Positions 10,275 to 51,764 of a stretch of DNA of 64,000 nucleotides are shown here, piece by piece. The DNA comes from Gemmatimonadota bacterium. Its GTDB lineage: Bacteria > Gemmatimonadota > Gemmatimonadetes > Gemmatimonadales > Gemmatimonadaceae. The notes beneath the pieces are model-generated. The model did no database searches and was not told the DNA's origin. It was given only the letters and a program-made list of their open reading frames with translations. Position numbers and translations under genes: made by a program. Positions within the stretch are counted from its first letter, which is position 1. The number at the start of each line of letters is the position of its first letter. The stretch is from positions 212,112 to 276,111 of the forward strand of contig JAHFCT010000001.1 in NCBI GenBank assembly GCA_023249375.1. Direction: 5' to 3'.

Positions 10275-10928
10275 TTACTCTTTGGGCGCGTCGGACTCGA
10301 AGATCTCGTCGGCCACGTGCTGCCGCACGTCGCGGTCCTTGGTGGTCGCGTTCGGATCATACGTCCCGCGGCCCGTGCCGTGCAGCGCCGCGCGCGCATC
10401 GTCGAGTCCGGTGACGTCAATCAGGTGCAGCACCGACAGCAGCTTCTCTTCCAGTTCCACCAGCACGTTGGCCGCGTAGCGGATCTGCTGGCTGGTGATG
10501 TCCTGGAACTGCAGCGCCTCCGTGATGGAGAACAGCTCGTTGCGCATCGCATCGCGCAGCTCCGCGCTCTTGCCCGTCTTTTCCGTATCGTCGGCGTCGA
10601 GCGTGTCGAGGATGCTCTGCGCCTTGTCGAGTGAGTCGAGAATGCCCGTCGCCGCCGACTCGGTCGTCGTGTTGACTTCCTCGAGCTTCGAGTGCGTGTG
10701 CTGCAGGCGCTCCACGGCCGCCGATTGCAGCTGCGTCTTGTTCTTCCGCAGGCTCTCAAGGATCTGCACGATCTCCTTGTTGGCCTGCTCGAGAATCATC
10801 GGAAGCACGCCGAGCGCGGAGCCGAGATGCTTGGCCGTGTCGACAGCCCCCAGCTCGCCGAGTTCGCTGTCGACAAGGCGAAGCGTCGCCTCGGAATCAT
10901 ACAGGACCTGCTGTACGCGTGTGGTCAT
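10275..10928 (-). CDS. cheZ: CheZ, CheY-P phosphatase
   Basis: This 217-residue mostly helical protein carries the catalytic signature FQDITSQQI. Asp and Gln fall at positions 143 and 147, the same numbering as the essential D143/Q147 of E. coli CheZ. A long helical hairpin with heptad character precedes it, and a linker leads to an acidic C-terminal helix (VADEIFESD) that would bind CheY. It would reset the flagellar switch by dephosphorylating CheY-P. It is the last gene of the minus-strand operon, directly after cheY (2 bp gap). No CheA, CheW or receptor genes are in the window, so the rest of the pathway is elsewhere. Confidence 0.9.
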   Translation of the reverse strand: MTTRVQQVLYDSEATLRLVDSELGELGAVDTAKHLGSALGVLPMILEQANKEIVQILESLRKNKTQLQSAAVERLQHTHSKLEEVNTTTESAATGILDSLDKAQSILDTLDADDTEKTGKSAELRDAMRNELFSITEALQFQDITSQQIRYAANVLVELEEKLLSVLHLIDVTGLDDARAALHGTGRGTYDPNATTKDRDVRQHVADEIFESDAPKE

Positions 10929-10930
10929 GG

Positions 10931-11305
10931 TCAGCTCGCGACAGGGGTACCGACCAGCGCGTCGATCTTTTCCTTCAAGACCTGCGGCGTGAACGGCTTG
11001 ACGATGTAGTTGTTGACTCCGGATTCCATGGCCGTGATGATGTCCTCGCGCACGGAGCGCGCCGTCACCATCAGGATGGGAATTGTCTTTCCGTCGTCGC
11101 GGGCACGCAGGGCGCGGGCGAGCTCGACGCCGCCCATGTTCGGCATGTTCCAGTCGGTGATGACGAATCCGATCTGGGGGCCGAACTTGGCGAGCGCGTC
11201 AGCGCCGTCGGCAGCTTCGACGATGTCGCTGATGCCGATGCGCTGCAGTGAATTGATCACGATGCGCCGCATCGTGGCCGAGTCGTCAACAACGAGGAAC
11301 TTCAT
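10931..11305 (-). CDS. cheY: CheY-like chemotaxis response regulator
   Basis: This 124-residue single-domain receiver has all key residues: acidic pair in VVDDSATMRR, phosphoacceptor Asp in VITDWNMPNMGG, switch Thr in MVTARS and Lys in IVKPFTP. The WNMPNM loop and lack of an output domain match flagellar CheY rather than a transcription factor. It would bind FliM (35608) when phosphorylated and be reset by the adjacent CheZ. It lies in the sigma-28 operon after flgM. Confidence 0.93.
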   Translation of the reverse strand: MKFLVVDDSATMRRIVINSLQRIGISDIVEAADGADALAKFGPQIGFVITDWNMPNMGGVELARALRARDDGKTIPILMVTARSVREDIITAMESGVNNYIVKPFTPQVLKEKIDALVGTPVAS

Positions 11306-11336: not shown

Positions 11337-11642
11337 CTAAATGTCGCCGCGCTGCAGAATGCGGCGCGCGACGGTGTCTACGATCTGTGTTGCGTTGTAG
11401 GCGCCGGCAAGAATCCGCCCGCGTACTTCGGTGACGCGATCGGCTGACATGGACTCGCTGCCAGACAATGCACGCCCTGCATCGGAAATTTCGACGCTGT
11501 CGCGGCGCGGCTTGGCCGACGTCGCCGGGGTCTCCGGCTTGGCCGACTTGGACGAGCTGATGGCCTCGGCTGCCCCCGCCTCACGAACCGTCGAGGACGT
11601 GGCGGCAAGGACTTCAGGCGACGGCGTTCCGTTGATCTTCAT
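11337..11642 (-). CDS. flgM: FlgM, anti-sigma-28 factor
   Basis: This 101-residue protein has a disordered Ser/Ala/Lys-rich N-terminal half and the conserved C-terminal sigma-binding half (DSVEISDAGRAL, then DRVTEVRGRILAGAYN and VARRIL). It would hold FliA inactive until the hook is finished and then be exported through the flagellar apparatus. A strong ribosome site (GGAGGA at 11651-11656, reverse strand) supports the ATG at 11642. It is the fourth gene of the operon beginning at 12610, whose sigma-28 type promoter gives the expected feedback loop with fliA (44312). Confidence 0.9.
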   Translation of the reverse strand: MKINGTPSPEVLAATSSTVREAGAAEAISSSKSAKPETPATSAKPRRDSVEISDAGRALSGSESMSADRVTEVRGRILAGAYNATQIVDTVARRILQRGDI

Positions 11643-11724
11643 GATGTACTTCCTCCATAGGACTTCGTATCGGCCTGGCGAGCCGGAAACTTGAATTGTG
11701 CCAAGCCCTTACAACAATTCTGTC

Positions 11725-12009
11725 TTAGCGGATCACGTCGAGCTTGTGCGGCGCGGCGGACACGATGCCGCCGTTGGCCGCCCGCAGCGATTCACCGGCC
11801 CGCTCCCGCTGCGCCGCCCCGCGAAAATGCAGGATGCGTGCATCACCGGCGTGGCGCTCCATCCCCTGGGCCGCCTTGGCGATGAGGTCGGTCAATGGAC
11901 CGCCCGCATTGGCCTCCGCGGACTCGGACGACTCGACGAGGGCGGCAACGACTGCCGCCACCCGCGTCATGCCATCGGCCGTCACGCCTCGGCGGGAGGA
12001 CTGCTTCAC
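11725..12009 (-). CDS. Unknown small protein in flgM operon
   Basis: This 94-residue protein has no family I recognise. The middle (about residues 15-60) is Ala/Glu-rich and could form helices; the C-terminal part is Arg/Gly-rich. Its ATG overlaps the stop of the preceding gene (ATGA, 12006-12009) and it ends 82 bp before flgM. The overlap argues that it is translated and belongs to this flagellar late operon. Function is unknown; a chaperone or a regulator of FlgM or export are only contextual guesses. Confidence 0.55.
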   Translation of the reverse strand: MKQSSRRGVTADGMTRVAAVVAALVESSESAEANAGGPLTDLIAKAAQGMERHAGDARILHFRGAAQRERAGESLRAANGGIVSAAPHKLDVIR

Positions 12010-12428
12010 TTCATCAACCTCAGGACCGGACGGCCCAGATACGCCTCAGCGACCGTGCCAACCTGAGCGAGGTGCACGCGTTCGGCTTCCACGCGGTCGC
12101 GGGCCAGCTGTAGCCGCTCGGCCAGTTCTTCCGCAAAGCGCGACGGCTGGCCCGTAATGGTCACGGCCGGGGCCGGCGGCTCGGCAGTTGGCGCCGGGTC
12201 GTCGGCAAGGAGCTCACCGACTCCCTGGCCCACGCGCGCATCGAGATGCGACCAGACCGGGTCGAGCTCGGCGTCGCGCCAGGCAGGCAGGCCGCCCGGC
12301 GGCGTCCGGCGGTCAAAGATGAGCTGGGCCCGCACCATCTGGCTCATCAGTGATTCGCGCGGCGAGGCCGGCGCATCGGATGCGCGGCGCCACGACGGGT
12401 GGGTGAGTTCGTGTTTGGAAACACTCAT
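12006..12428 (-). CDS. Unknown 140-residue protein in flgM operon
   Basis: The N-terminus (MSVSKHELTHPSWRR) is polar and basic. The middle is Pro-rich, and the last 50 residues form a predicted amphipathic helix (RFAEELAERLQLARDRVEAE). The overall look, short and helical with a Pro-rich linker, resembles flagellar chaperones of the FlgN/FliT kind, but no diagnostic motif is present and FlgN is encoded elsewhere. The ATG at 12428 overlaps the stop of the upstream gene by 4 bp, and its own stop overlaps the next start by 4 bp, so three genes are translationally chained. A longer frame upstream to 12722 is rejected because it would cross the gene at 12425-12610 and the promoter. Confidence 0.6.
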   Translation of the reverse strand: MSVSKHELTHPSWRRASDAPASPRESLMSQMVRAQLIFDRRTPPGGLPAWRDAELDPVWSHLDARVGQGVGELLADDPAPTAEPPAPAVTITGQPSRFAEELAERLQLARDRVEAERVHLAQVGTVAEAYLGRPVLRLMK

Positions 12429-12610
12429 GGCTGTCCATCCTGCGAGTCGGCGGCCGCGCGTCCCTTTCCCTCGACGGAGAGCTCCACAACGTCCTGTGGC
12501 TCCGACGTGGCACTCCGCGTCCGTTCTCGGTCCCGCGACTTCTCTGTTGAGGCAGGACGCCGCGACGATCCTGTCGCCGGCCTGGCTCCGAGCAGTGCTT
12601 GAATGTTCAT
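12425..12610 (-). CDS. Unknown 61-residue leader protein of flgM operon
   Basis: This short, highly charged protein (MNIQALLGARPATG, then an Arg/Lys/Glu/Ser-rich stretch, then DVVELSVEGKG) is preceded by a perfect AGGAGG at 12621-12626 (reverse strand), 10 nt from the ATG at 12610, which is the strongest evidence that it is real. The DVVELSVEGK segment faintly resembles the DSVEISDAGR segment of FlgM, but the sigma-binding helices are absent. It is the first gene after the sigma-28 type promoter and is coupled to the next gene by an ATGA overlap. Function is unknown. Confidence 0.6.
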   Translation of the reverse strand: MNIQALLGARPATGSSRRPASTEKSRDRERTRSATSEPQDVVELSVEGKGRAAADSQDGQP

Positions 12611-12678
12611 AGCGGCGGCACCTCCTGTGCCGACCCCCCCGTGCAATTCGGGCTGGATACACTTCGCCCCTATCGCTG

Positions 12679-12706
12679 TGATCGACAGTCCCCCGGGAAT
12701 TCTTTA
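12679..12706 (-). promoter_or_regulatory. Sigma-28 type promoter for flgM-cheY-cheZ operon
   Basis: Read on the minus strand: TAAA (12706-12703), a 16-bp spacer, then GTCGATCA (12686-12679), close to the TAAA-N15/16-GCCGATAA consensus. The leader to the first ATG would be about 60 nt. Confidence 0.6.
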
Positions 12707-12867: not shown

Positions 12868-13767
12868 ATGCGAATCACCAACAACATGGTCACCCAGCTT
12901 GCGGTGTCTCAGTTCGACACCTCACGGCAGAAGCTCGAGGAGGCCCAGCGCAAGGTCACGACCGGCAAGTCGTTCAGCTCGGCCTCGGAAGATCCCACCG
13001 CCGCCGTTTCGGTCATGGCCAACAACGGCGCGCTGCGCGCGCTCGACCAGTACAAACGGAACATCGACTCGGCGACCTCGCGCCTCTCGTTCGAGGAAAG
13101 CGCCACCAGCCAGTTGAGCGACTTGCTGAGCCGCGCCAAGGAACTGGCCGTGGCGCAGGCCACCGACACCTCGTCGCCGGAATCGCGGCAGGCTGCCAAG
13201 GCGGAGGTCAATCAGATCCTCCAGCAGGCCGTGGTGCTTGCCAACACGCAGGACGGCACCGGATTCCTTTTCGGCGGCACCAAGAGCGACCAGCCGCCGT
13301 TTACGGTGGACACCTCGGGCTCGGTGTACACGTTCTCCGCCTCGGGCGGCGCCGGCAATCGGCAGGTGGAGATTGCCGCTGGACAGCGCGCGAACACGGC
13401 GCACGATGGAACCCAGGTCTTTGGCACCACGAGCGCCGGTGTCCTCAAGACCATCCAGGATCTCGCGACGGCACTCGACACCGGAACGGCCGCGGCAGTC
13501 ACCGCGGTCATTCCCAATCTCGACTCCGCCTTTACGCACACGCAGACCGTCGTGAGCGAGGTTGGCGCGCGGCAGAACCAGATGCAGATCGCCTCGGCCA
13601 ACGTCTCGGCGTTCAGCCAGAACCTCGTGGCGCTCAACTCCAGCCTGCAAGATGTCGATCTTGAAACTGCGGTCACTGAACTGGTTGGCCGGCAAACCGC
13701 CTATCAGGCCGCCATGTCGGCCACGTCGCGGGTGATGAACCTGAACTTGACGGACTACCTGCGATGA
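12868..13767 (+). CDS. flgL: FlgL, hook-filament junction protein (HAP3)
   Basis: This 299-residue protein has flagellin-like N- and C-terminal coiled-coil segments: N-terminal MRITNNMVTQLAVSQ with SSASEDPTAA, and C-terminal DVDLETAVTEL then GRQTAYQAAMSATSRV. The end NLTDYLR is typical of FlgL. It forms the second junction layer between hook and filament. The ATG at 12868 is chosen because the sigma-54 start would be near 12822 and the protein begins with the conserved MRI. Its stop overlaps the fliW start (ATGA), so the two are co-translated. FlgK, its partner, is encoded far away at 50097. Confidence 0.93.
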   Translation: MRITNNMVTQLAVSQFDTSRQKLEEAQRKVTTGKSFSSASEDPTAAVSVMANNGALRALDQYKRNIDSATSRLSFEESATSQLSDLLSRAKELAVAQATDTSSPESRQAAKAEVNQILQQAVVLANTQDGTGFLFGGTKSDQPPFTVDTSGSVYTFSASGGAGNRQVEIAAGQRANTAHDGTQVFGTTSAGVLKTIQDLATALDTGTAAAVTAVIPNLDSAFTHTQTVVSEVGARQNQMQIASANVSAFSQNLVALNSSLQDVDLETAVTELVGRQTAYQAAMSATSRVMNLNLTDYLR

Positions 13768-14240
13768 CCCTTCCCTCCCCAGTCGAGCTGGCGATGCCCG
13801 CACGCCGCGTGGTGCGCTCGGAGTTGTTTGGCGCACTCGAACTTTCCGACAGCGATATCATCGAGTTCAGCGACGGTTTGCTGGGCTTCCCGGAGTGCCG
13901 TTCGTGGGCGCTCCTTCCCGGCACGAAGACGGGAACGGCCTGGCTGCAGTCAGCAGACCACGCCGCGCTGGTCTTCCTGCTCGTCGATCCTTTCATCTTC
14001 GTCGACGGCTACTCGGCCGAACTTTCCGACGGTGAGTTTCGCCGGCTTCAGGCCAAGGACGCCAGCGAGATCGCGGTCTTCTCGATCGTCACGCTGCCGC
14101 CACCCGGCCACCCGACGTGCACCGCCAATCTGCAGGGCCCCATCGTGCTGAACTTCAACGCGCGCCGCGGCCTGCAGGTAGTGTTGGGCGAAGGTCCCTT
14201 CGGTGTGCGCACGCCCATTCCCATGTCGGCGCTGCTCTAG
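13764..14240 (+). CDS. fliW: FliW, flagellar assembly factor and CsrA antagonist
   Basis: This 158-residue protein shows the FliW signatures IIEFSDGLLGFPECRSWALL and LVDPFIF near residues 70-76, and later SIVTLPP and ANLQGPIVLN. FliW binds CsrA and flagellin: free FliW sequesters CsrA when flagellin has been exported, allowing new flagellin translation. CsrA (51519) and fliC (15666) with a suitable leader are both in the window. The gene overlaps flgL by 4 bp. Confidence 0.93.
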   Translation: MTLPSPVELAMPARRVVRSELFGALELSDSDIIEFSDGLLGFPECRSWALLPGTKTGTAWLQSADHAALVFLLVDPFIFVDGYSAELSDGEFRRLQAKDASEIAVFSIVTLPPPGHPTCTANLQGPIVLNFNARRGLQVVLGEGPFGVRTPIPMSALL

Positions 14241-14269
14241 AAAATCCGCGCGCCGCGTCCGAGCGTTCC

Positions 14270-15478
14270 ATGCCGCTGCATCCACCGAAGATCGGCGCGG
14301 TCATCACCACGTACAATCGGCGCGACCTGCTCGGGCCGACGCTGCAGTCCGTGCTCTACCAGGACGGCGCCGATTCGTCGGTCATTGTGGTGGTCGACGA
14401 TGGTTCCACCGATGGCACCGTGGAGTACCTGCTCGACGAATTCGCCGCGGACATCGCGCACGTTGACGACCGCATTGCGGAGACATCGCTCGAGGGCAGC
14501 CCGCACGGCATGGTGCGCGTCATTCGCCAACAGAACCAGCACATTGCCGTCGCGCACAACACGGGAATCCGCGAGTTGCTGCGCCTCGAGTGCCCCTATC
14601 TCACGCATCTCGACGCCGAGGACCTCGCCTTTCCGAACAAGCATTGCGTGCTGGCGGCGTACCTCGACGCGCACCCCGGTGTCGGGCTCGTGCACGCCCA
14701 GTCGCAGGACATGTCGTTCGACGGCTTCCTTTTTTCAGAAGGCAGCGGTCCGTTCGAGCAGGTCTACCGGCGCGCGCGCCCCGAGGGCGCGTTCTGGGAA
14801 CGCGCGGCGCGCGGCGGGTTCCACGCGGGCGACCTGGCGCAGGGCAACTATGTGCACAATCAGACGACGATGTACACGCGCCGCGCGGTCACCGCGGCCG
14901 GCGAGGGGAACTGGTTCTCGGAGGGCATGCGCTACGGCTCCGACTGGACGTTCTATCAGCGGCTCGAGCGCGCGGGCGTGCCGTTTGGATTTGTTCCCGC
15001 GTACGTCGCGTTCACACGCGCACATACCGGCGGCATCTCCGGCACTCGCAGCAAAGGCCTGACGCTTGACCAAGCGCTGGTCCAGGCCGCGTCGAGCGAA
15101 GAACGGATGGAAAAAGCGGACGCCTATCAGTGGGCGCGCGCCAAGTGGCCGGCGGAGTTCGAGGAGGCGTTGCAGCGAACCGGGACCGATACAGACTTCG
15201 CCGCGCTGGCCGGTGCGCTGCAGGCGTCGCTCCGCCAGTTGGTTGACGCCGGCGATCTCGTCGATGCGCTCAATGTCGCGCATCGCATGCAGCGGCTGGC
15301 ACCGACGCCCAGCGGGCGCAGGCTCATTCGCGATCTCGTGGATGCGATCGTCGCACAGCTCGCCCACGGCGAGCCCTCCCTGCCGCTGGCCAAGCAGCTC
15401 TTCGCCCTGCAACCCTCGCCGCGGCACGCCGCGGCGCTGGCGCGGCTGCTGGCCGACGACGCGGCCGCCGTTCGCTGA
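14270..15478 (+). CDS. Family 2 glycosyltransferase, probably for flagellin
   Basis: This 402-residue enzyme has an N-terminal GT-A domain: VITTYNRRD at residues 11-19, VVDDGSTDGT near 41-50 and a metal-binding LDAED at 114-118. The last 130 residues are helical and TPR-like (repeated ALxxA helices), as in several protein O-glycosyltransferases. It lies between fliW and fliC, so flagellin is the likely acceptor, but that is contextual. The ATG at 14270, 29 bp after fliW, starts directly before the GT core; upstream in-frame starts lie within fliW and are rejected. The sugar donor is unknown. Confidence 0.82.
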   Translation: MPLHPPKIGAVITTYNRRDLLGPTLQSVLYQDGADSSVIVVVDDGSTDGTVEYLLDEFAADIAHVDDRIAETSLEGSPHGMVRVIRQQNQHIAVAHNTGIRELLRLECPYLTHLDAEDLAFPNKHCVLAAYLDAHPGVGLVHAQSQDMSFDGFLFSEGSGPFEQVYRRARPEGAFWERAARGGFHAGDLAQGNYVHNQTTMYTRRAVTAAGEGNWFSEGMRYGSDWTFYQRLERAGVPFGFVPAYVAFTRAHTGGISGTRSKGLTLDQALVQAASSEERMEKADAYQWARAKWPAEFEEALQRTGTDTDFAALAGALQASLRQLVDAGDLVDALNVAHRMQRLAPTPSGRRLIRDLVDAIVAQLAHGEPSLPLAKQLFALQPSPRHAAALARLLADDAAAVR

Positions 15479-18845: not shown

Positions 18846-19241
18846 GTGGCGTATCAAACGCTCGCCGGACGGTATCGCGAATCGGAAGTGCTCAGCGCCT
18901 CACCGCACCGGCTGCTGCTGCTCACGTTCGATTTCCTGCTGGCGCAGTTTGCGCGGGCCAAGATCGGCATGCAGACGAAGAACCTGGAACTGACGATCAC
19001 CGCGCTCGACAAGGCGCGCCAGGCGATCGGCGAGCTGCTGGGGACGCTGGACATGGAGAAGGGCGGCGAACTCGCGCATCGCCTGCGCTCCATCTACGTC
19101 TTCGAGTTCGGCGAACTCTCCGAACTCGGGCGCAACCATGACGTCGCGCGCCTTGAGCGCAACGCGACGCTCATGCGTGAGCTGCGCGAAGCCTTCGCCT
19201 CGGCGTCGGTCGCGCGACCGGCCACGGCGGAGGTCGCGTGA
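18846..19241 (+). CDS. fliS: FliS, flagellin export chaperone
   Basis: This 131-residue helical protein fits FliS: YQTLAGRYRESEVLSASPHRLLLLTFDFLL at the start corresponds to the family pattern of a conserved Tyr then P-x-x-L-I-x-x-L-Y-D. Helices around IGELLGTLDMEKGGELAHRL and the short C-terminal part match its four-helix bundle. It binds the flagellin C-terminus to stop premature polymerisation. The start is a GTG at 18846, with GAGG 6 nt upstream. The next gene overlaps it by 4 bp. Confidence 0.88.
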   Translation: MAYQTLAGRYRESEVLSASPHRLLLLTFDFLLAQFARAKIGMQTKNLELTITALDKARQAIGELLGTLDMEKGGELAHRLRSIYVFEFGELSELGRNHDVARLERNATLMRELREAFASASVARPATAEVA

Positions 19242-19627
19242 CGCAGGCGGCCGTTGCCAGCGGCGATGCCGCGCGCGCCCTCGCGCTGCTCCAGCAGCTG
19301 ACCGCCATGTGCGACGAGACCACCCGGGTGCTTCCGAATGATCCGTCGCGCATCTCGGCCATGCTCGAGTCGTTCGAGGAGACGCTTGCCCTCCTGGCGC
19401 CCGTGCTCGAAGTCGTCGGCAAGTCGCCGAGCGAGTCGCGCGACACCGTGATCGCGGCCGCGCTGCACGCCGCGGATCGCCATCAGGCACTGCTCGACGC
19501 CATCTCGCGCGAACTCGACCGTCTTTCCCATGCGATCGCCAGTATCAACGTCGCGTCGCAGGTGACGGCCGCCTACGCTGGCGGCTCTCCGGTCACCATG
19601 CGAGCCGTCTTTCAGGCGAACGGTTAG
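19238..19627 (+). CDS. FliT-like small helical protein
   Basis: This 129-residue, almost wholly helical protein has no catalytic motif. Its start, a GTG overlapping the fliS stop (GTGA), shows coupling. Size, helix content and position directly after fliS match FliT, the FliD chaperone and regulator, and LLQQLTAMCDETTRVL resembles the start of FliT/FlgN bundles. Sequence similarity alone is too weak to name it. It could equally be another FlgN-fold chaperone. Confidence 0.6.
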   Translation: MTQAAVASGDAARALALLQQLTAMCDETTRVLPNDPSRISAMLESFEETLALLAPVLEVVGKSPSESRDTVIAAALHAADRHQALLDAISRELDRLSHAIASINVASQVTAAYAGGSPVTMRAVFQANG

Positions 19628-44311: not shown

Positions 44312-45070
44312 ATGGATAGCAACGCGCTGTGGACGAAGTATCTCGGCGGTGATGCCGACGCCCGTCAGCAGCTCCTGAACGAGCATCTCGGGCTGGTGCA
44401 CTTTGTCGCCCGCCAGGTTGCCCGCGGACTCGCCGTTGACATGGATTTCGACGAACTCGTCAGCGCCGGCACGCTCGGGCTGATGAACGCGCTTGAGAGC
44501 TTCGATCCCAAGCGTGGACTCGCGTTCAGCACGTTTGCCGCGCCGCGCATTCGCGGGGCGATTCTCGACGAACTGCGCCGCCAGGATCACGTGCCGCGTT
44601 CGATCCGCCGCAAGACCCGCGAGATCAACGCCGCGCGCGAGTCGCTGTCGCGTCAGCTCTCGCGGCCGGTGACGGACCGAGAGACCGCAGACCGGCTTGG
44701 GGTGGATGTGGAAACGCTCTGGCGCTGGCAGGCCGACGTGGAAGGGGCGGTGCATCTGCCGCTCGACCGCAGCACGACGCCGCAGGATGATTCCGGCATC
44801 ACGCCGGTGGAACAGCTCGTGACGGAAGAGGAGAATGAGATCGAGAACCAGCTCAACCACGAGCAGGAAGTCGATCACCTTCGCGCCGCCATCATGAAGC
44901 TGAAGGAGCAGGAGCGCGTGGTGCTCTCGCTCTACTACTACGAAGAGCTCAAGCTGCACGAGATCGCCGAGATTCTCGAACTGACCGAATCACGCGTGTC
45001 GCAGATTCGTTCGAAGGCGCTGCAGCGCCTGCGCACCCAGATGGGCGCGCTGCGCGAGAACGTCGCCTGA
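44312..45070 (+). CDS. fliA: FliA, flagellar sigma-28
   Basis: This 252-residue sigma factor has region 2 (HLGLVHFVARQVARGL, DELVSAGTLGLMNALESFDP), region 3 (PRSIRRKTREINAARE) and region 4 (VVLSLYYYEELKLHEIAEIL, ESRVSQIRSKALQRLR). Length is as in other FliA (about 239-255). It would recognise the TAAR-N16-CGAT promoters seen before fliC, flgM operon and motA. FlgM (11337) is its antagonist. Follows flhG by 3 bp; the next gene starts at its stop (1-bp overlap). Confidence 0.96.
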   Translation: MDSNALWTKYLGGDADARQQLLNEHLGLVHFVARQVARGLAVDMDFDELVSAGTLGLMNALESFDPKRGLAFSTFAAPRIRGAILDELRRQDHVPRSIRRKTREINAARESLSRQLSRPVTDRETADRLGVDVETLWRWQADVEGAVHLPLDRSTTPQDDSGITPVEQLVTEEENEIENQLNHEQEVDHLRAAIMKLKEQERVVLSLYYYEELKLHEIAEILELTESRVSQIRSKALQRLRTQMGALRENVA

Positions 45071-49295: not shown

Positions 49296-49585
49296 CCCGC
49301 GTTGACGGACCGTCAGCTGGCGGCCTTCCGACCGTTCCCGACCGCCTCGCGCGGCTCAAGGACACGAGCGGCAAGCTCGAAGGCGTCTTTGTCGAGCAGC
49401 TGTTCAAGGCGATGCGCGAGACGGTGCCGCAGGACGGCATCGCCGATGGCGGACAAGGCGAAGAGATCTTCAGCGGCATGTTCGACCAGAAGCTCGCGGA
49501 CCAGGTGCCGGCGCAATGGCATCGCGGCATCGCGAGCGCGCTCATGAAGGAACTGAAGGACCACGTGCGGCCGGAGTCCAAGTGA
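49292..49585 (+). CDS. flgJ: FlgJ, rod-binding domain only
   Basis: This 97-residue protein is the N-terminal rod-cap domain of FlgJ (LEGVFVEQLFKAMRETVPQD, GEEIFSGMFDQKLADQ). It lacks the C-terminal muramidase domain found in gamma- and beta-proteobacterial FlgJ (313 residues). The rod must therefore cross peptidoglycan with another enzyme; compare the M15-type domain within FliK. Overlaps flgI and flgN (GTGA) by 4 bp. Confidence 0.9.
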   Translation: MTRVDGPSAGGLPTVPDRLARLKDTSGKLEGVFVEQLFKAMRETVPQDGIADGGQGEEIFSGMFDQKLADQVPAQWHRGIASALMKELKDHVRPESK

Positions 49586-50097
49586 ACAGCGCCCTTCCTT
49601 ATGCGGTGGATGCGTCGCTCGTGAATGCCACGAGCACGGTCGCCGCACTCGTCGATTCCCTGCGCACCGAGGCGAGGCTCCTCGGCGATCTCGCGGCCAT
49701 CATGCGCCGGCAGCGCGAATCGGTGACGCACGACGACCTGCAGGGCGTCGACGATTCGGTCTTCTCCACGCACCGCGTACTCGTGACGCTTCAGGAAGCG
49801 CGCCGCCGCCGCCGTACGCTCAACCACGTGCTGGGCGAAGGCGATGACCTGAGCGTTGTTGCGCTGGAAGAGTTCTTCAACGGCGAACTGCCGACCAGCG
49901 TGGCGGAAGCCGCCGAGGCGCTGCGTGGCAGCGCGCTGGCGTTGCAGCAGGAAGTGACGGTGAACCGCCGCGTGCTGCGCGAAGCCATTTCCGCGGGCGA
50001 CCGCCAGGTGCAAATGCTCGTCAGCGCCGCCAACGGCGGCACGGGCGCCGGGGCCGTGCCCGCGAACGGCGGACGCCTCATCGACCGGAAAGTCTGA
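49582..50097 (+). CDS. flgN: FlgN-like chaperone of FlgK and FlgL
   Basis: This 171-residue helical protein begins with a GTG overlapping the flgJ stop. Features fitting FlgN: SLRTEARLLGDLAAIMRRQR near residues 22-41, then helices and the C-terminal LLSAANGG-like disordered tail with Gly/Ala. It directly precedes flgK, its client, whose start overlaps by 1 bp. The family is poorly conserved so identification is by position and helix pattern. Confidence 0.75.
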   Translation: MNSALPYAVDASLVNATSTVAALVDSLRTEARLLGDLAAIMRRQRESVTHDDLQGVDDSVFSTHRVLVTLQEARRRRRTLNHVLGEGDDLSVVALEEFFNGELPTSVAEAAEALRGSALALQQEVTVNRRVLREAISAGDRQVQMLVSAANGGTGAGAVPANGGRLIDRKV

Positions 50098-51518: not shown

Positions 51519-51764
51519 ATGCTCATTCTCACCCGCCGCGAAGGAGACGCGATCTACATCGACGGGGGAGTTCGGATCGTGGTCCTGTCCGTCGATCGGA
51601 AAGGCGTGCGGCTCGGCATCGAAGCGCCGCCGGATGTGCGCATCTTGCGCGGGGAAATCGTGGCCGAGGTGGAGAGCGCCACGAAGGGCGCGGCGACGGG
51701 CGAGAGCGCCAAGCCGCTGCTCGATCAGCTCCCGAAGCCCGCGCCGCGAAAACCGGACGCGTAG
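51519..51764 (+). CDS. csrA: CsrA, RNA-binding regulator
   Basis: This 81-residue protein has the CsrA start MLILTRREGDAIYI and the key Arg44 in RILRGEI. The core is the usual about 60 residues; the C-terminal 20 residues (Lys/Pro/Ala-rich) are an extra tail. It would bind GGA motifs in leaders, notably fliC, and be antagonised by FliW (13764). Its location at the end of the flgK operon is a common arrangement. AGGGATG gives a close ribosome site. Confidence 0.94.
   Translation: MLILTRREGDAIYIDGGVRIVVLSVDRKGVRLGIEAPPDVRILRGEIVAEVESATKGAATGESAKPLLDQLPKPAPRKPDA

Follow-up and report, generated by a model that had tools for sequence, protein, structure and literature searches.

Flagellar assembly and late gene expression are coupled by the export of FlgM, which acts as a checkpoint. 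FliT is the export chaperone of the cap protein FliD, and FlgN is the usual chaperone of FlgK and FlgL; CsrA and FliW are known partners in other bacteria. The part of FlgM that FliA is reported to bind is its C-terminus (PMC3595227), and in Salmonella the binding of FlgN, FliS and FliT to FlhA depends critically on tyrosines of these chaperones (PMC8527033).

The locus described here lies in a window of 64,000 nucleotides from a Gemmatimonadota bacterium of the Gemmatimonadaceae, the window being the whole stretch of DNA that was analysed, and consists of three small genes that precede flgM. The computational comparisons show that these are real, conserved genes with conserved promoters and linkage to flgM. 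Their assignment to the late flagellar genes, as claimed in the original prediction, is very probable and well supported by purifying selection, conserved sigma-28 promoters, strict synteny with flgM and the restriction of gene 2 to flgM-bearing genomes.

Layout and conservation of the three-gene set

The original prediction had placed open reading frames of 61, 140 and 94 residues at 11725-12610, and all three are present there on the minus strand, followed downstream on this strand by flgM, cheY and cheZ. The genes of the window that are relevant to this set are the following:

12425-12610, minus strand: gene 1, 61 aa, half-FlgM-like
12006-12428, minus strand: gene 2, 140 aa, C-terminal helix core at residues 98-140 with the invariant Tyr130
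11725-12009, minus strand: gene 3, 94 aa, GTG start, predicted two-helix protein with the C-terminal end LDVIR
11337-11642, minus strand: flgM, PF04316 at 20.6 bits (under the gathering score), TIGR03824 at 5.4e-6, matches the FlgM chains 9wsf_B and 1rp3_B
10931-11305, minus strand: cheY, PF00072, 9.6e-26
10275-10928, minus strand: cheZ, PF04344, 1.9e-8
12868-13767, plus strand: flgL, divergent neighbour of the three-gene set, flagellin N and C domains, flgL-fliW synteny
13764-14240, oriented opposite to the three-gene set: fliW
19238-19627, plus strand: FliT-like gene directly after fliS, comparator for gene 2, no Pfam match of its own
44312-45070, plus strand: fliA (sigma-28), TIGR02479 FliA_WhiG, 3.5e-67
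49582-50097, plus strand: flgN, adjoining flgK, PF05130, 5.1e-9
51519-51674, plus strand: csrA

ATGA overlaps had been described for both junctions of the set. This holds for genes 1 and 2, whereas genes 2 and 3 are joined by GTGA, which includes the GTG start of gene 3. A simple codon-usage gene caller picks genes 2 and 3 in the window, but picks gene 1 in relatives only.

Intact orthologues of all three genes occur in three sister species, giving four species with the window. The frameshifts in close relatives that the original prediction had named as counter-evidence were looked for in the sister species and none was found. Compared with the sister species, pN/pS was 0.21-0.30 for gene 1, 0.31-0.36 for gene 2 and 0.41-0.54 for gene 3, the corresponding values being 0.22-0.41 for flgM and 0.39 for flgL.

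Of 179 genomes of the family, 101 yielded a FlgM match. Co-occurrence with flgM, which had been proposed as a check, was borne out for gene 2: it occurs in 15 genomes, all of which bear flgM, and in the loci read it always stands beside flgM; three further matches in genomes without flgM (E>0.003) look spurious. Among named relatives that carry gene 2, the nearest are Gemmatimonas and Gemmatimonadota metagenome-assembled genomes; within Gemmatimonas, flagella have been described for G. phototrophica and G. groenlandica (PMC9862903, PMC10581226). Strong matches to gene 1 were obtained in five genomes only, and most relatives with genes 2 and 3 lack this gene.

Two layouts were distinguished among the related loci. 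In the commoner type A, fliC-fliD-fliS is followed by a FliT-like gene, often by a further small variable gene, and then by flgM-cheY-cheZ. In type B, to which the window belongs, flgL-fliW diverges from gene 1 (where present), gene 2, gene 3, flgM and cheY, usually with cheZ in addition. The type B loci form one clade in a tree of flgL and fliW, in which some inner nodes are weakly supported, and the promoters, overlaps and gene order of the set are kept across genera. One type B genome (G004) lacks gene 2; it has a single gene, whose end (HIDATR) resembles that of gene 3. The type A gene just before flgM is 41-251 aa long as called and very different in sequence between genera, with the [LIV]-D ending usually kept (e.g., in L044, L046, L047, L066 and L092).

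Promoters and leader of the set

Four sequence signals were located in and around the set:

12679-12706, minus strand: sigma-28-like promoter P1, TAAAGAAT-N12-GTCGATCA, 96 nt upstream of gene 1
12621-12626, minus strand: AGGAGG ribosome-binding site of gene 1, 10 nt upstream of its ATG
12616-12632, minus strand: hairpin in the gene 1 leader whose loop holds the Shine-Dalgarno sequence (GGCAC-AGGAG-GTGCC), a prediction shared by all four genus members
11669-11694, minus strand: sigma-28 promoter P2 of flgM, TCAAGTTT...GCCGAT, a strong box lying between gene 3 and flgM

Both the AGGAGG motif and the sigma-28 type promoter before gene 1 had been claimed, and both were found. P1 was scored with a matrix derived from the sigma-28 boxes of flgM, leaving out the genus of the window. 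In the window the site is weak (p=0.02 against shuffles) and ranks among the weaker of those scored; a site of this type is nevertheless conserved at p<=0.025 in 12 of the 13 related loci scored (L049 being outside this set), the sole failing locus being L040 with p=0.195. Its distance to the start codon amounts to 90-96 nt where gene 1 leads the set and mostly to 36-37 nt where gene 2 leads. Before flgM, a sigma-28 box is present in 45 of 65 related loci, mostly about 50 nt from the start, compared to a mean of 0.4 and a maximum of 2 in shuffles. With P1 before the set and P2 before flgM, the set and flgM would therefore each have a promoter of their own, and read-through is possible; the gap from gene 3 to flgM has no reported terminator-like site. 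Thus, the description of the three genes as leading the flgM-cheY-cheZ operon stands in so far as the set precedes flgM and read-through may occur, but flgM has its own sigma-28 box, so that the three genes are a unit of their own, from which transcription can at most continue into flgM-cheY-cheZ.

The leader hairpin is not recognisable in G151, a genome outside the four genus members, and the gene 1 leaders overall are not unusually stable (z -2.2 to +0.4). Searches of Rfam around the locus returned no matches. Translational control at the gene 1 leader is conceivable from the sequence, csrA and fliW both being encoded in the window. A CsrA site in this leader was considered as a side remark only, since apart from the GGA it fits the known CsrA consensus poorly. 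The csrA gene itself lies directly after flgK and apart from fliW.

Relation of the products to FlgM and to export chaperones

The original prediction had recognised no known flagellar family in the three genes, and neither Pfam nor NCBIfam gave a match for any of them. Likewise, gene 1 was not matched by the curated FlgM models of these collections, and the curated FliT and FlgN models matched none of the 13 members of gene 2 and none of the 13 members of gene 3. Searches of PDB sequence profiles with genes 2 and 3 yielded nothing useful; the only match, 7bqm ('Chantal'), was dismissed (E=0.18). A Foldseek search of the PDB with the gene 3 model gave no match. The suggested roles as chaperones, FlgM-related export factors or assembly regulators pointed to the right area, as profile comparison relates gene 1 to FlgM and features of chaperones are seen in genes 2 and 3, but none of the three belongs to a curated family.

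The five members of gene 1 have in common the N-terminus MNI[QK]AL[LI]GxRP and a block [DE]-x-V-E-[IL]-S-x-E-G-[KR], which in the window corresponds to:

12452-12493, minus strand: FlgM-type block DVVELSVEGKGRAA, gene 1 residues 40-53

In a ranking by a FlgM motif matrix from which the genus of the window had been left out, the block of each of the four genus members outscored every one of the 810 non-FlgM proteins in the fetched loci, and that of the fifth member outscored all but one. Starting at its first residue, the gene 1 profile could be aligned to the N-terminal columns of FlgM (P=1.2e-5, compared to P>0.1 for eight other families), a score that was reached in none of 120 column shuffles, and its weak matches in other genomes fall within FlgM. 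Computational comparison thus shows that gene 1 resembles the N-terminal half of FlgM at the level of sequence. With FlgM (PF04316, TIGR03824) it shares the start MxI, a disordered-looking N-terminal half, a D-x-V-E-[IL]-S-x-[ED]-G-[KR] block and the position in a sigma-28-like unit, upstream of flgM itself. It differs in its length of only 61 aa and in the N-terminal block, which belongs to gene 1 and is no FlgM feature. Furthermore, the C-terminal part of FlgM, including the GAY and VAxxIL segments conserved in the FlgM alignment, is missing from all five members. As this is the part to which FliA is reported to bind, the gene 1 product probably does not inhibit sigma-28.

For gene 2, the alignment of 13 members revealed a C-terminal core F-[AG]-x2-L...R...L-x2-V-x2-V-A-x2-Y, in which Tyr130 is invariant in 13/13. 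AlphaFold2 predicted a helix at residues 95-131 with high local but low global confidence (pTM 0.25), and the N-terminal half looks unstructured or is poorly predicted. An end-to-end alignment of the core with the FliT-like family was obtained (P=7e-4; 0/120 shuffles), the next controls being FlgM (0.014) and FlgL (0.042); these comparisons are a handful among several dozen made, so that moderate P-values have to be read accordingly, and the column-shuffle null destroys helix periodicity. In a scan of single proteins with the gene 2 core, FliT-like proteins were not top-ranked, but several FlgMs were. This ranking suggested that gene 2 might correspond to part of the C-terminus of FlgM, which was rejected as the main reading, given P=0.014 for FlgM against 7e-4 for the FliT-like family and 2 of 120 shuffles that reached the FlgM score. 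Profile links of gene 2 to subsets of the type A genes are weak.

With FliT (PF05400) and the FliT-like genes after fliS, gene 2 shares the long C-terminal helix, the invariant tyrosine and the aligned C-terminal region. Its N-terminal half, however, is unrelated and variable, it precedes flgM instead of following fliS, and the window has a FliT-like gene besides it. PF05400 itself is matched by 2 of 12 aligned FliT-like proteins, that of the window not being among them.

The 13 members of gene 3 have short helical segments in common, and the model of the protein consists of two helices with a mean pLDDT of 70.9 but a pTM of 0.30. A C-terminal motif [LIVF][DN]x(1-3) is present in 12 of 13 gene 3 members, in 14 of the 20 type A genes that precede flgM and in 26 of the 38 FliT-like proteins, compared to 30 of 337 other unlabelled proteins; the motif was picked after seeing the sequences and loosened once, and its p-values are descriptive. 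The comparisons of gene 3 with the type A gene before flgM and with the FliT-like family were each reached by 0/120 shuffles, both being weak by hhalign's own estimate, and with P=0.015 the FliT-like family is not clearly separated from other helical flagellar families. Similarity of genes 2 and 3 to FliT-like proteins is thus moderately supported at the sequence level. Gene 3 encodes a small, predicted two-helix protein that ends in [LIV]-D-x, as does the FlgN (PF05130) of the window with LIDRKV. It differs from FlgN in length (94 aa compared to 171 aa), in having no PF05130 match and in the C-terminal tyrosine, none being invariant in the gene 3 alignment. An identity of gene 2 or gene 3 with flgN was rejected given the presence of flgN elsewhere in the window. 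Gene 3 is best read as the local form of a highly variable gene, which in Gemmatimonadaceae frequently stands before flgM.

Candidate roles in flagellar export

Taken together, the three genes may encode lineage-specific late flagellar export accessories, i.e., an exported half-FlgM and two small chaperone-like proteins, a reading to which we give an even chance. Once the hook is complete, sigma-28 would start transcription at P1 for genes 1-3 and at P2 for flgM-cheY-cheZ, which might also be reached by read-through from the P1 unit. Gene 1 would yield a half-FlgM with a FlgM-like N-terminus and the D-x-V-E-[IL]-S block. Since it lacks the sigma-28-binding part, a role of its product as exported passenger or as competitor in the FlgM export route appears more likely than one as anti-sigma factor. 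Genes 2 and 3 would provide small helical proteins working like the FliT and FlgN export chaperones, and by analogy the invariant tyrosine at the end of the C-terminal helix of gene 2 could, hypothetically, dock to FlhA. It counts against these roles that FlgN, FliS and a FliT-like protein are already encoded elsewhere in the window, so that a chaperone vacancy is not evident. If true, a FlgM-like protein without the sigma-28-binding part, translationally coupled to chaperone-like genes, would separate FlgM export from inhibition and make this separation testable.

The same evidence was weighed for other roles. Genes 2 and 3 might instead encode small exported, structural or assembly proteins of the hook-filament junction, e.g., a FlgL accessory, or regulators of flagellar gene expression: in the lineage they lie beside the divergent flgL, the N-terminal half of gene 2 has little predicted structure, and a dedicated FlgN is already encoded. 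As the FliT-like similarity of the C-terminus and the common C-terminal motif point to the chaperone class, we regard this as rather unlikely. A functional sigma-28 regulator, binding weakly via the shared FlgM block and modulating FlgM or acting as a second anti-sigma factor, is a still more doubtful role for gene 1. Its block does align with the segment D-x-V-x-[LI]-S in FlgM chains of solved structure and the gene lies in a sigma-28-like unit beside flgM, but the C-terminal FlgM region is lacking, and it is the FlgM C-terminus for which binding by FliA was reported (PMC3595227).

A narrower variant of the export accessories, in which gene 2 is the dedicated FlhA-docking chaperone of an exported gene 1 product and both form an export-checkpoint module beside the classical FlgM circuit, appears unlikely. 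An N-terminal gene 2 block, ESxxSQxxRAQxxFDR, is strongly conserved in the five genomes with gene 1. In the other eight gene 2 members, whose genomes lack gene 1, it was not recognised, but G139 and G140 among them keep a faintly similar stretch; as the genomes are related, this block tracking gene 1 is a lead only. Moreover, gene 1 is missing from most relatives with genes 2 and 3, and gene 2 can therefore not serve gene 1 alone. A decaying locus, with gene 1 as the leftover fragment of a flgM duplication and genes 2 and 3 as drifting, functionless remnants, would agree with the partial FlgM present in five genomes only and with the fast evolution of gene 3 (pN/pS up to 0.54), but is very improbable in view of the intact frames in four species, the low pN/pS of gene 1 and the promoters, overlaps and gene order conserved across genera. 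Returning to the export accessories, the comparison of loci shows the slot before flgM to be lineage-specific and fast-evolving in sequence, and genes of this kind therefore stay unannotated.

Some further genes were noted in the surrounding regions. In three loci of other genera (L045, L047 and L087), fliD and fliS are separated by an extra gene with the ending LIDRKF, LLDRKA or LLNRIG, similar to that of the FlgN of the window, which suggests a FlgN-like chaperone in an unusual place. The window encodes a family 2 glycosyltransferase (14237-15478, plus strand) between fliW and the flagellin gene, and in L041, L049, L058 and L064 unlabelled genes of about 1000 aa follow fliW, which are possibly involved in flagellin glycosylation.
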